From positions 1 through 64,000 of the forward strand of contig JAIKZS010000173.1 in assembly GCA_024682035.1 (NCBI GenBank): a stretch of 64,000 nucleotides of DNA. Direction: 5' to 3'. Shown here piece after piece: positions 37,414 to 47,055 of the stretch. The stretch comes from Bacteroidaceae bacterium. Its GTDB lineage: Bacteria > Bacteroidota > Bacteroidia > Bacteroidales > Bacteroidaceae. The notes beneath the pieces are model-generated. The model searched no databases. It saw nothing but the letters and a program-made list of their open reading frames with translations, and was not told where the DNA came from. The position numbers and the translations under genes were made by a program. The stretch's first letter is position 1. Each line of letters opens with the position of its first letter.

Positions 37414-37465
37414 TAATATAATTAATGAGGGTGCGATTAGTATCGCACCCTCATTAATTATATTA
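37414..37465. terminator. Long bidirectional hairpin between convergent genes
   Basis: 24-bp perfect arms TAATATAATTAATGAGGGTGCGAT / ATCGCACCCTCATTAATTATATTA with 4-nt loop. Confidence 0.75.
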
Positions 37466-39293
37466 GTTTGCGATAAGTGATAGCAAGCATCGTTAAATCA
37501 TCACTCGGTTCAGCCCCATCTACAAATGTGGCAACTGCTTCTTTCATGTTAGAAATAAGTTGTTTGGGATTCATCGATAGAGTACCGAGAGCAGCCTTTT
37601 GTCGTTGTAATTCCTGCATAATTTTTTCTTCACCGAAAAGTTCTGGCTTAGCATTCACAGCATCGGTAAGTCCATCTGTATACAGGAATATAGTAGCTTG
37701 TGGTTCTAATTGAACTTGTTGTGTTTCACACTGCCATGCTGGTTGAACACCTATGGGAAAGTTTGAATCTATCGGCAAGAAACTGATATCCTTTCCTATC
37801 AGTACTGGAGCATCGTGACCTGCATTACAATACTTCAAAAGTCCGTTCTTCAAATCAAGCACTCCTACAAAGAAGGTAACAAACATAAAAGAATCATTCT
37901 GATCGGACATAGAGTCGTTGATGCTCGTTATTATTGTAGACGGCAAATCAGCATGCATTGAAACCATACGGAATAGTGTTCTAGCTACCGACATCACCAA
38001 GGAAGCAGGCACACCCTTACCACTTACATCACCTATACAGAAGAACAGTTTCTCTTCTCGAATAAAAAAGTCAAACAGGTCACCCCCAACAGCCTTAGCA
38101 GGAGAAAGCATTCCATATACATCAACATCATCTCGATTTGGATATGGTGGAAATATTTTTGGCAGCATGGACTTTTGAATATCACTAGCTATTCGAAGCT
38201 CGCTTTCAATACTAGCCTTGCTGGCCGTTGTTTTCTTTAATTCGTCAATATATTTCGCAAGTGAATGCTGCATTTCTTCAAAAGAATCATGCAAACGCCC
38301 CACTTCATCATAACGTCTTAAGTCGGGAAGCTGTTCAACAAAATCGCCTTTTGCAATGTTACGAGTAGATTTAGCCAATTCTTTTAACGGCAACAATTCA
38401 TAACGAATGACTAAAAAAAGACCGATAGAAATAGTAACTAATAAAAAAAGAAGAAGAATCAGCATATTCTCACTAAGCATATCGGCTCCCAACATAATCC
38501 TTTCATAGGGGATTGTAAATGAAACTTTCCACTGCACTCCATCTACAAAATCATCGAGCACAATAGCATTTTTGCCAACATGGGTAGATTTACTAATGTA
38601 CTGGCCATCACGACTCACCACATCAGCTTCTGCATAACTATAGGGCTTGGCTTCTTCTACAATTTGATTAACCCACAACAGACCAACATCTGCACACAAT
38701 ACGGCATAAATATTATTGTTTTTATCATGCAAGGGCACCGAATATGTAATCATGGCACGTCTTGTAGATATAGAATCAATGTAGGGCAAGCACCAGTAAG
38801 GAGATTCTAACTTATTAGTATATATCCAATTACTATCTGTTTCCAAATACGAGAAATCGTATGCTGGTCCGCCAATTTCTTCCTCTTCCAGTTCATTTGT
38901 ATAAGGATTGCGCAATATTGTAGGCGCATAATAGCGACCTTCTTCTGGGAAAAAGTTTTCACTATAAAGCAAAGTTACTGCTGTAATATCTTTGTTTGAT
39001 TCAATAAGATTTTTAAGAATGTGATTGGCCTGAACTTTCGCTATGCCCATCTTATCTGCAAAAGCAGCAGCTGTACCCACAGCAGTTTCTACATTTGAAA
39101 TTCTATTGCTGATTATCTGGATGGCACTTCTCATGGCTTTACTGGCATTTTCACGTGTTTCATTTTCCACCCAACCTCTTACATGATACATCTGCCAGAT
39201 GCCTCCACCCAACAATATAATAGTAACCACTAGCACTACAAGTAGTGTTATGCGTGCAGCTATCGATTTTTTAAAAAAATCAATGAGGTTCAT
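37458..39293 (-). CDS. Membrane sensor PP2C (SpoIIE-like) serine phosphatase with Cache-like sensor and HAMP
   Basis: Two TM segments, HAMP-like IRYELLPLKELAKSTRNIAKGDF, AVGGDLFDFF, CIGDVSGKGVPASLVMS, EPSDDLTMLAI. Confidence 0.88.
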   Translation of the reverse strand: MNLIDFFKKSIAARITLLVVLVVTIILLGGGIWQMYHVRGWVENETRENASKAMRSAIQIISNRISNVETAVGTAAAFADKMGIAKVQANHILKNLIESNKDITAVTLLYSENFFPEEGRYYAPTILRNPYTNELEEEEIGGPAYDFSYLETDSNWIYTNKLESPYWCLPYIDSISTRRAMITYSVPLHDKNNNIYAVLCADVGLLWVNQIVEEAKPYSYAEADVVSRDGQYISKSTHVGKNAIVLDDFVDGVQWKVSFTIPYERIMLGADMLSENMLILLLFLLVTISIGLFLVIRYELLPLKELAKSTRNIAKGDFVEQLPDLRRYDEVGRLHDSFEEMQHSLAKYIDELKKTTASKASIESELRIASDIQKSMLPKIFPPYPNRDDVDVYGMLSPAKAVGGDLFDFFIREEKLFFCIGDVSGKGVPASLVMSVARTLFRMVSMHADLPSTIITSINDSMSDQNDSFMFVTFFVGVLDLKNGLLKYCNAGHDAPVLIGKDISFLPIDSNFPIGVQPAWQCETQQVQLEPQATIFLYTDGLTDAVNAKPELFGEEKIMQELQRQKAALGTLSMNPKQLISNMKEAVATFVDGAEPSDDLTMLAITYRKLI

Positions 39294-40606
39294 TTTGTTT
39301 TATTGCTTGTTAGTCTTGCATATGGTTCTCCCATAAGAATATGCTCATATCCACCGGCTCCATCAGTTGTAGTAACAAGGTTAACTTCAATGCCTTTTTG
39401 GAAAATCATCACAACATCAGATCCGCCAAAGAGGAAATAACCCATTTCGTCACCCTTATAAAGTTGGTTGCCCACTTTTAAAGCATTGATCCAATTTACG
39501 CTACATATTTGTGACATACCAATGGGCAGCATAGCTACCAAACCAAAATCTGGTGTTTCTATTATAGCACAAGCCCGTGTTTCCACCATTTGAAAACCCA
39601 TATCATTAACGTAATAATAACGTTTCGATTTGTTATCCCACAAGGTATAACCACCACCTGCTGCGACCCCTGGTATAGTGCGAAGTTCTACTAACTTGCC
39701 TTCTACAGGAGCATGATATCGATGGTAATCATTCACATCCAGGAATGTATGTGTTAGCGTACCACCAGCAAAAGCATCTTTATACTTACTATCGTGACCT
39801 ATTAAATCAGCTATATCAGAGAACTTTGCAGTTTTAATCTGTACATCATCAGGATAAAGTAACTGGTTATTATCATCAATCTCCCACAAGGCCTTGGGCC
39901 AAGAATCGGCAGGTGAAACCAACTCTGCTACCTCATCAATGGGGCGTACATCTGGACTGGCTAATCGACGAGCAAAAAACTCATTGAAAGTACTCCATTT
40001 ATCACCACTCTCATACCATCCATTCGCCACTCCCCAAACAGGATCTGATGATACCATGTTGTAATAAGTATCGTTCCAGCTTTCTGGAGTACTGAGCCAA
40101 TCACCCCAAGCATTGCAATAAGTAGTTAACCAAGAAGCAAATGGTTCAACAAACTCTACTGTAGGATAGAAAAAACCACGATCTTTCAACTCGTCTAAAG
40201 GTTGATCTACCACAAACCAGAAATACCCAACACCTTGATCTACACGGCTGTACAAACTTGCGCCATCAGCTTTTAAACCTGTCATTACATCCCAAGGCAA
40301 AGCACGAACATTCCAATCTATAAAAACAAAAAATTCTTCTAAAGATTGAGCGGGATTATATTTTCTGTCTGGATTAATATCTGCAGCTTGTTGTATAGCA
40401 TGTTCCAACAAAGCTCTCACCTCATCATTCTCTTTACAAATTTCTATAAGTTCTTTTACTGGTTGTGTATGCTCAGCAAGCGGTGGGTAGTCGTATTCAA
40501 TAGGAAGAGGTCCCATGTCGTCAGACGAGCAGGCGACAAAAAATACACTGAACAAAATCAGTAATATAAATTTCCATCTATCTAACAATCGCATATCAAT
40601 TCGCAA
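39290..40606 (-). CDS. Phosphatidylserine decarboxylase-like lipoprotein (PSDC + PSD-like domains)
   Basis: Lipobox FFVACSS; DVNDYHRYHAPVEGKL; YFLFGGSDVVMIFQKG (PSD self-processing region). Confidence 0.75.
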   Translation of the reverse strand: MRIDMRLLDRWKFILLILFSVFFVACSSDDMGPLPIEYDYPPLAEHTQPVKELIEICKENDEVRALLEHAIQQAADINPDRKYNPAQSLEEFFVFIDWNVRALPWDVMTGLKADGASLYSRVDQGVGYFWFVVDQPLDELKDRGFFYPTVEFVEPFASWLTTYCNAWGDWLSTPESWNDTYYNMVSSDPVWGVANGWYESGDKWSTFNEFFARRLASPDVRPIDEVAELVSPADSWPKALWEIDDNNQLLYPDDVQIKTAKFSDIADLIGHDSKYKDAFAGGTLTHTFLDVNDYHRYHAPVEGKLVELRTIPGVAAGGGYTLWDNKSKRYYYVNDMGFQMVETRACAIIETPDFGLVAMLPIGMSQICSVNWINALKVGNQLYKGDEMGYFLFGGSDVVMIFQKGIEVNLVTTTDGAGGYEHILMGEPYARLTSNKTK

Positions 40607-45087: not shown

Positions 45088-46728
45088 ATGTATAGCGATA
45101 AAAGATCTGTTCGGCAATTAGCAGTTTTACTAAAATCACATGGAGTGACAAAAGTGGTATTATGCCCTGGTAGCCAAAATGCATCACTTATTCATACTTT
45201 TCTACAAGTAAACCACTATACTTGCTATCCTATGAACGATAATCGTAATGCTGGCTTTTTTGCTATAGGATTGTCGCTACACGATGCTGCTCCAGTAGCT
45301 GTGGTTTGCGCAACAGGTAATGGTTTAGCTAACATGCTACCAGCTGTGGCCGAAGCCTATCACCAGCAAGTTCCTTTAGTAGTGATATCAGCTGACACAG
45401 TTCCATCCCGATTAAAAGAGCCTCTTATCTTTGAGAAAACAGTTAAGTGTGCAATTAACTTACAAGAAATTCAAAGTGACGCAGATGCATTGAATTGCAA
45501 CAAATTAATAAACGAAGCCTTGTTGGAAAGTAAACATCACGGAAGAGGTCCTGTACATATTAATATACAACTAAGCGACCCAGCATTTGGGTGTAATACT
45601 GCCGATTTAGAAGAGGAAAGAGTGATAGAAAGATATCAAGGACTTAACATGTATGAACAGGATTATCAACCTTTGGTAAACCGACTTAATAAACTAAAAA
45701 AGCGCATGGTGGTGGCTGGCCAAATGAACAACATTTATGTTTTCGACAAAAAGCATGAAATGACGTTGGCAAAACAATTTGTATGGTTTACCGAAAACCT
45801 AAGCAATCACACCACTCCAGGCAATCCCATTAGAAGAATGGAAGAATTGTTATACCCAATGGATCTGAAAACTCAAGAAAATTTGACACCTGAGCTATTG
45901 ATTACATTTGGAGGAACAATTGTATCCAGAAGGTTAAAATACTTCTTACGCAAACATAAACCACAGGAACATTGGCATGTATCAATTGATGGTAAGATAT
46001 ATGATGCCTTCGGAGCTCTAACGACGGTCATAGAAATGGATCCATTTGAATTTTTTGAGAAAATTGCTCCACTTATAGAAGACATTCCACCTCTTTATCC
46101 CCGACAATGGAGTCAGTTGGAAGAAAAGCTCTCATCACCTCGCTTGCCATATTCAGAATTTTATGCAGTCGGGCAATTGCTATCATCATTACCAAAAGGG
46201 TGCTCACTGCATTTAGGCAACAGTTCTGTAGTTAGGATCGCGCAAATTTTCGCATTGCCTAATGATATTGAAATTCAATCAAATATGGGATTAGAAGGAA
46301 GTGAAGGTTCATTAAGTACTGCCTTAGGATATGCTACTGCGAGTGAGAAATTAAACTTTATCTTGCTAGGTGATGTAAGCTTTTTCGAAGGTATGAATGC
46401 ACTGTGGAACAGTAATTTTGGCTCAAATATACGTATAATGATTATCAATAATGGTGGTAATGCACAAATGCAGAACCTACCAGGATTTACCCCAGATAAC
46501 CAGACACAGCGATATGTTACGGGTACCCATCAGGCTTCGGCCAAATGCTGGGCTGAAGATCGTGGATTTACTTATCTTTCAGCCAACAGCAGCGAAGACT
46601 TGCAAACAGCTTTACCTTACTTTACGAAACCTGACATTACGCGCCAACCCATATTATTAGAAGTATTTACCGATAAAATTACTGATGCAGAAACATTAAA
46701 ACAATATTATAAGGGACTAAAGAAATAA
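45088..46728 (+). CDS. MenD homologue (SEPHCHC synthase family), divergent at conserved positions
   Basis: MYSDKRSVRQLAVLLKSHGVTKVVLCPGSQNA; SFFEGMNALWNSNFGSNIRIMIINNGG; substitutions discussed in findings. Confidence 0.8.
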   Translation: MYSDKRSVRQLAVLLKSHGVTKVVLCPGSQNASLIHTFLQVNHYTCYPMNDNRNAGFFAIGLSLHDAAPVAVVCATGNGLANMLPAVAEAYHQQVPLVVISADTVPSRLKEPLIFEKTVKCAINLQEIQSDADALNCNKLINEALLESKHHGRGPVHINIQLSDPAFGCNTADLEEERVIERYQGLNMYEQDYQPLVNRLNKLKKRMVVAGQMNNIYVFDKKHEMTLAKQFVWFTENLSNHTTPGNPIRRMEELLYPMDLKTQENLTPELLITFGGTIVSRRLKYFLRKHKPQEHWHVSIDGKIYDAFGALTTVIEMDPFEFFEKIAPLIEDIPPLYPRQWSQLEEKLSSPRLPYSEFYAVGQLLSSLPKGCSLHLGNSSVVRIAQIFALPNDIEIQSNMGLEGSEGSLSTALGYATASEKLNFILLGDVSFFEGMNALWNSNFGSNIRIMIINNGGNAQMQNLPGFTPDNQTQRYVTGTHQASAKCWAEDRGFTYLSANSSEDLQTALPYFTKPDITRQPILLEVFTDKITDAETLKQYYKGLKK

Positions 46729-47055
46729 GTGCTGATTATAAGAAATAAATACTTGCCTTTAAAACGATTTACCGCTATTAATCTCCTAGGTATAATATTT
46801 GCACGAAATGAAGCTGATATAAACGAACGGATATTAAACCATGAGCGTATTCATACCCGCCAAATGTTAGAAATGCTCGTGGTAGGTTTTTATTCATGGT
46901 ATCTTATAGAATGGATCATTCGTCTTCCTATGAAAGGCAATGCCTATCGCAACATCAGCTTTGAGCAAGAGGCATACAACAACGAGTCCAATCTAAACTA
47001 TTTGTCTGATCGAAAACCGTTTGCTTGGTTCATATACATCAATAAATCCTTATAA
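46729..47055 (+). CDS. Small protein with HERIH motif (M56/BlaR1-like minimal metallopeptidase-like domain)
   Basis: NHERIHTRQ then FEQEAYNNE; GTG start directly abutting upstream stop. Confidence 0.6.
   Translation: MLIIRNKYLPLKRFTAINLLGIIFARNEADINERILNHERIHTRQMLEMLVVGFYSWYLIEWIIRLPMKGNAYRNISFEQEAYNNESNLNYLSDRKPFAWFIYINKSL

Follow-up and report, generated by a model that had tools for sequence, protein, structure and literature searches.

The window analysed here, a stretch of 64,000 nucleotides from a Bacteroidaceae bacterium, carries a menD-derived gene whose product is the former MenD of its lineage, altered after the menaquinone pathway was lost. To our knowledge, the only role described for MenD is that of the first committed enzyme in menaquinone synthesis, and it has been studied as an antibacterial target. 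The protein described here was probably retained and repurposed as a binding, scaffold or regulatory pseudoenzyme following the loss of the pathway, at least in the sub-clade that lacks the catalytic Glu. MenD and pseudoenzymes are each already known; a search of a partial literature collection turned up no MenD described as retained after the loss of both its pathway and its active site.

The reading frame was found to be intact over 546 residues and to carry the MenD signature, as an earlier note on this DNA had claimed. The protein matched the menD model TIGR00173 with 264.6 bits, above the curated cut-off of 244.2, the ordinary menD genes of the genus reaching 302-387 bits. The MenD homology extends over the full length, in sequence and in fold, and the closest structural relatives are MenD enzymes. 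An AlphaFold2 model based on 39 aligned sequences displayed a confident ThDP-enzyme fold (pLDDT 85.8, pTM 0.82), with the exception of residues 462-482, which follow the second metal motif. All of the 50 best PDB matches listed for the model were MenD. Superposition of the whole chain on MenD crystal structures was poor (TM about 0.5), probably owing to the domain placement in the single-chain model; the model was used for the fold alone and domain placement was left out of the conclusions. The features are collected in Table 1.

Table 1. Features of the menD-derived locus (positions of the window; residue changes are given relative to B. subtilis MenD)
Feature	Position	Strand	Remarks
menD-derived gene	45088..46728	+	546 aa, ATG start; MenD fold with degenerate active site
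PGSQNAS, residues 27-33	45166..45186	+	Arg32 to Gln30; Q/T/L/V in the clade
DNRNAGFFA, residues 51-59	45238..45264	+	cofactor-activating Glu to Asn52
shortened active-site loop, residues 103-115	45394..45432	+	8 residues of the canonical DRPAAWIGQMDGQTLPQ gone; Arg106 to Thr104
SNMGLEGSEGS, residues 398-408	46279..46311	+	Arg428 to Met400, Ile433 to Ser405
GDVSFFEGMNAL, residues 428-439	46369..46404	+	metal-ligand Asp429 retained; YD to xG
NNGGNAQMQ, residues 454-462	46447..46473	+	metal ligands Asn455/Gly457 retained; Ile489 to Gln460
gene of small HExxH (HERIH) protein, phrog_15610 'protease' type	46729..47055	+	108 aa, GTG start immediately following the stop of menD

Residues were mapped by alignments to B. 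subtilis MenD, and their roles were taken from the work on that enzyme (PMC2914249). There, isochorismate is assigned to Arg32 and Arg106 and alpha-ketoglutarate to Arg409 and Arg428, Arg409 serving both substrates (PMC2914249). Ile433 props ThDP in its bent form, and a large hydrophobic residue holding ThDP bent is described in the same work as strictly conserved in MenD (PMC2914249). All the altered motifs named in the earlier note (PGSQ30NAS, DN52RNAGFFA, SNMGLEGSEGS and NNGGNAQM) were found. The replacement of the catalytic Glu was confirmed by alignment with 67 ordinary MenD sequences: its column (Glu55 in E. coli, Glu54 in B. subtilis), invariant in them (97% or more), holds Asn52 in the window protein, and no other Glu substitutes for it. 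Two changes went beyond that note, namely the 8-residue deletion in the substrate loop and the replacement of the cofactor-propping Ile by Ser or Ala. The main isochorismate residues are lost (Gln30, Thr104 and the 8-aa deletion), and of the alpha-ketoglutarate Arg pair one is retained (Arg383) and one lost (Met400). The window protein resembles MenD/SEPHCHC synthase (2X7J, 5EJ4, 7TIN, 9E9B) in its full-length match, its orthologous position in the tree, the three-domain ThDP fold and the Asp/Asn metal-diphosphate ligands. It differs from it at the positions of Glu, Arg32, Arg106, Arg428, Ile433, Ile489 and Phe490, in the shortened substrate loop and in the absence of menF and menB from the genome.

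When 84,980 genomes were scanned with a profile of the clade, nine more proteins closely related to that of the window were obtained, with identities of 70-81%. Their assemblies are from rumen, omasum, reticulum or RUG sets, the last of which we take, from the isolate names, to be rumen assemblies. All ten frames are intact (about 544-547 aa), with up to 30% protein divergence. The loop deletion, the loss of the PGSR Arg, the NMG motif, Ser or Ala for Ile433 and Gln for Ile489 were present in 10 of 10 members, and the Arg428 position is Met in every one. Gly435 is likewise fixed throughout, and the Phe490 position (461) holds Met, Leu or Gln, with Met461 in the window protein. The anchor of the Mg-ThDP diphosphate, Asp457/Asn484/Gly486, is kept across the clade as Asp429/Asn455/Gly457, Arg409 is retained in all members as Arg383, and Lys299 is replaced by Arg281. 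A sequencing or assembly error was rejected as the source of the changes, which are common to ten independent assemblies. In six of the ten (the window protein, L085-L088 and L127) the Glu itself has given way to Asn or His; Asn recurs in the independent goat-reticulum assembly L086, and the four others have His. The remaining four (L089, L090, L091 and L107) retain Glu and share the other changes, which indicates that Glu was lost after the rest.

In the phylogenetic tree the ten orthologues group together as a single clade (SH-aLRT 100), whose sister is the pair L092 and G023 (SH-aLRT 99), with nearly canonical motifs; clade and sister pair are nested among Phocaeicola-like MenDs. Such a position among the MenDs of the lineage identifies the protein as an orthologue and not a paralogue. 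The earlier note had suggested a paralogue with a new or non-enzymatic role rather than menaquinone synthesis. The second part of this proposal stands as the best reading, with MenF and MenB missing and the substrate residues gone; the term paralogue had to be abandoned, since the genome contains no menD besides this one and the tree places the protein as the lineage's own MenD. The lack of another menD is one half of what the note had named as speaking against its reading, the other half being complementation of a menD mutant. A single menD over the cut-off was found in each of four clade genomes, namely that of the window (G000), G013, G093 and G117. True divergent paralogues do occur elsewhere in Bacteroides: second MenD-like copies of 266-293 bits (G001:C41:216518, G065:C43:93957, G145:C1:181686 and G137:C2:1590032) lie beside a normal menD and menB. 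They share with the window protein a divergent MenD-family sequence in the same genus, but coexist with the normal genes, as in G001:C41 and G145; the copy of G001:C41 (L025) moreover retains the motifs DERSAG and NRG, and its identity with the window protein is about 35%.

Genes menF and menB normally sit beside menD. The window gene is not adjacent to menF, menB, menC or menE, and its neighbourhood agrees with the earlier note on this point. For the pathway as a whole, 113 genomes of the same genus were compared, all at least 85% complete except G000, a 74% complete assembly that was included. Among the 113 genomes, menD was detected over the cut-off in 70 and menB in 67. The genomes with menD and without menB were exactly the clade members G000, G013, G093 and G117, two of which are 90% complete; menB was present in 66 of the 66 others with menD. 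No menB was found in G000 or in any clade genome searched, two of them giving weak matches far below the cut-off. A search of the clade genomes for menF yielded at most single TrpE-type matches below the cut-off, and the control genomes G012 and G003 gave MenF above it. The menE model scores true Bacteroides menE well below its own cut-off. The sister genomes G023 and G052 (L092) are also without menB and menF, and their MenD is nearly canonical, which places the loss of the pathway before that of the active site. The futalosine pathway was rejected as a replacement: MqnC gave no match in G000, G006, G008, G013 or G023. G000 also carries ubiE and menA as a gene pair (G000:C46:5045-6654), ubiE being named from its sequence. 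Genomes that have menA and ubiE and lack the early genes are presumed to rely on DHNA taken up from outside (PMC5738691; PMC4746308).

Several side observations were made on these genes. G081 (93% complete) has menB and no menD over the cut-off; its menD, at G081:C111:105938-107193, is split into two pieces and has one in-frame stop, possibly a recent break or an assembly error. Across G000-G024, prenyltransferase matches of MenA/UbiA type nearly always number two without menB and one with it, the only exceptions being three assemblies with a completeness below 77%. The second copy, a UbiA/MenA-like gene, directly precedes a radical SAM-like gene that begins with a Cys-rich stretch (TNGCNSTCRHC) in three genomes of the clade, at L173:3547-5392, L175:6221-8009 and L176:5432-7223. 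The neighbourhood of the second copy in G011 differs, so the second copies may not be one family.

The distribution of the changes was evaluated on columns invariant in the 67 ordinary MenDs, of which 27 were changed in all ten clade members. Thirteen of the 27 belong to the active site, which makes up 19 of the 209 background columns (p=2e-9). The divergent MenDs of G015 and G003, which have menB, showed none of their 29 and 46 changed columns in the active site, so that the constraint on the active site was lost specifically in the clade. The protein is under strong purifying selection, as ordinary MenD is: the dN/dS ratios were 0.045 and 0.070 for close clade pairs and 0.024-0.078 for ordinary MenD; the measure rests on the closest pairs, dS being saturated in most wider ones. 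Six formerly invariant positions were re-fixed in all ten members (F274, R281, K291, M400, G435 and Q460), and this pattern favours a new constraint over free drift. Judged from its sequences, the protein is functional in some sense and the old active site is not needed.

The gene directly behind menD encodes a small HExxH protein. It was found in this place in 12 of 12 loci of the lineage (the ten of the clade, L092 and G023), whereas no further menD locus of the scan has it there; in several lineage loci the menD stop and the HExxH start overlap or abut. Its dN/dS was 0.08-0.10. The protein matched phrog_15610 'protease' with E 7.7e-36, and relatives were detected in 127 phage records, including crAss-like phages annotated as 'putative zincin superfamily protease', as well as in two prophage-like regions of G080 (L190:8451-8756 and L191:612-950). 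One of the G080 relatives adjoins holin-like and peptidase-like genes. The family appears as an uncharacterised small zincin common to phages and Bacteroidaceae chromosomes. It was present in 74 of 251 sampled Bacteroidaceae genomes and 13 of 30 genera, and no menD was near it in 29 loci examined from these 74 genomes. The proposal that it is a unique functional partner is weakened, as the family is widespread without menD and common descent may explain the pairing; a functional link with the MenD-like protein is possible. A known defence system was rejected, since PADLOC gave no match for the window protein or its HExxH neighbour.

It is extremely improbable that the protein is a diverged but working SEPHCHC synthase whose partner genes are missing through incomplete assemblies. 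It passes the TIGR00173 equivalog cut-off and its genome is 74% complete, but menB was not found in any clade genome searched, two of these being 90% complete, nor was menF in any of those searched for it. Arg residues for both substrates are lost, and mutation of Glu55 in E. coli MenD is cited in PMC2914249 as abolishing activity. On these residues and genes the protein is very unlikely to be a working synthase, and given the absence of menF and menB, complementation of a menD mutant by the window gene would be unlikely. A relic in decay, with menD becoming a pseudogene once the pathway was gone, would account for changes at sites that serve catalysis alone, as expected once catalysis is unselected, and G023 would represent an early stage. 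Ten intact frames across up to 30% protein divergence make this reading very improbable, and decay was rejected by dN/dS of 0.04-0.07, the same as in working MenD. A DHNA sensor, in which an organism that salvages DHNA has kept the known allosteric site of MenD, is similarly doubtful and was rated slightly lower. M. tuberculosis and S. aureus MenD bind DHNA away from the active site (PMC9835592), ubiE-menA is retained in the genome, and DHNA salvage has been proposed for Prevotella (PMC5738691). The DHNA cage of the M. tuberculosis enzyme, however, consists of Arg97, Arg277 and Arg303 (PMC9835592), and in the alignment the Arg97/98 position is Gln94, an invariant Gln in the clade, and the Lys283 position is Gly276, leaving the first two cage positions unmatched. 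Ordinary Bacteroides MenD has Lys, Asn or Gln at the Arg97/98 position. A sensor acting through the known cage is not supported, the cage residues not being conserved.

The main rival is a new ThDP-dependent enzyme with another substrate, although we regard it as unlikely. The reshaped pocket (Met400, Gln460, Gly435 and the short loop) would hold a new donor, and the missing Glu might be bypassed by analogy with glyoxylate carboligase, which works with Val at the Glu position (PMC3534367). The clade has kept its metal and diphosphate ligands as well as Arg383, R281, M400, G435 and Q460 were re-fixed in or next to the pocket at formerly invariant positions, and Glu is retained in L089, L090, L091 and L107. 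Glyoxylate carboligase is likewise a ThDP enzyme without Glu, but it belongs to another family of the superfamily and its Val is family-wide, whereas the clade has a variable Asn or His and many other active-site losses. Against a new enzyme, Glu gave way to polar Asn or His and not to one fixed residue, the hydrophobic residue that bends ThDP is Ser or Ala in 10 of 10, the Phe490 position is variable, and there are no metabolic neighbours that point to a reaction. The pseudoenzyme reading has its own difficulties: the Glu of four members and the ligands and Arg383 of all ten would equally fit an enzyme with a new substrate, the HExxH protein occurs alone in many Bacteroidaceae and its pairing with menD may be chance inheritance, and the genome of the window is 74% complete.

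The repurposed pseudoenzyme is nevertheless the reading that we favour. The early menaquinone pathway (menF, menB) was lost first, and the lineage's own MenD was kept, its active site being specifically dismantled while strong purifying selection continued; the protein would no longer make SEPHCHC and would have been re-used. The ThDP fold and the Mg-diphosphate anchor Asp429/Asn455/Gly457 would now serve in binding, as a scaffold or in regulation, and the residues of the Glu-less sub-clade that includes the window protein predict no ThDP catalysis. The protein perhaps acts with the HExxH protein encoded directly behind it. Imported DHNA would then probably be converted to menaquinone by UbiE and MenA, both of which are retained.

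Of greatest interest is that the same fate was reached twice. L140 and L141, from Phocaeicola assemblies of the rabbit gut (their isolate names contain 'Lapin'), lie near P. massiliensis/B. fluxus in the tree, and neither menB nor menF was found in their assemblies. Like the window protein, they have intact frames and active-site Arg losses (Arg106 to Tyr, Arg428 to Met or Leu), together with Ile489 to Ala or Thr, but they are of separate origin and retain Glu and the loop length. In these two as well, the changes cluster in the active site (p=9e-5 and 8e-6); pN/pS was 0.10/0.77, with dS saturated. Since two lineages separately lost menB and menF, kept MenD and dismantled its active site, it may tentatively be proposed that Bacteroidaceae MenD performs a second, non-catalytic function, one that persists once the menaquinone pathway is gone and to which the rumen lineage would have added a new two-gene unit with an HExxH protein of a phage-associated family. 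If true, selection on MenD without pathway or active site would be evolutionary evidence for a second role. In these uncultured rumen bacteria one protein of the pathway has remained strongly selected after the known early vitamin K2 genes were lost, which suggests a different job for it. There is also a warning here for annotators and for surveys of vitamin K2: such genes score above an equivalog cut-off, and in rumen metagenomes they might be taken for menaquinone synthesis.

Elsewhere in the window, a 438-aa lipoprotein-like ORF on the reverse strand (39290-40606) has a phosphatidylserine decarboxylase-related look, and the adjoining ORF (37458-39293) resembles a PP2C-type phosphatase with a HAMP-like region; both were named by eye.
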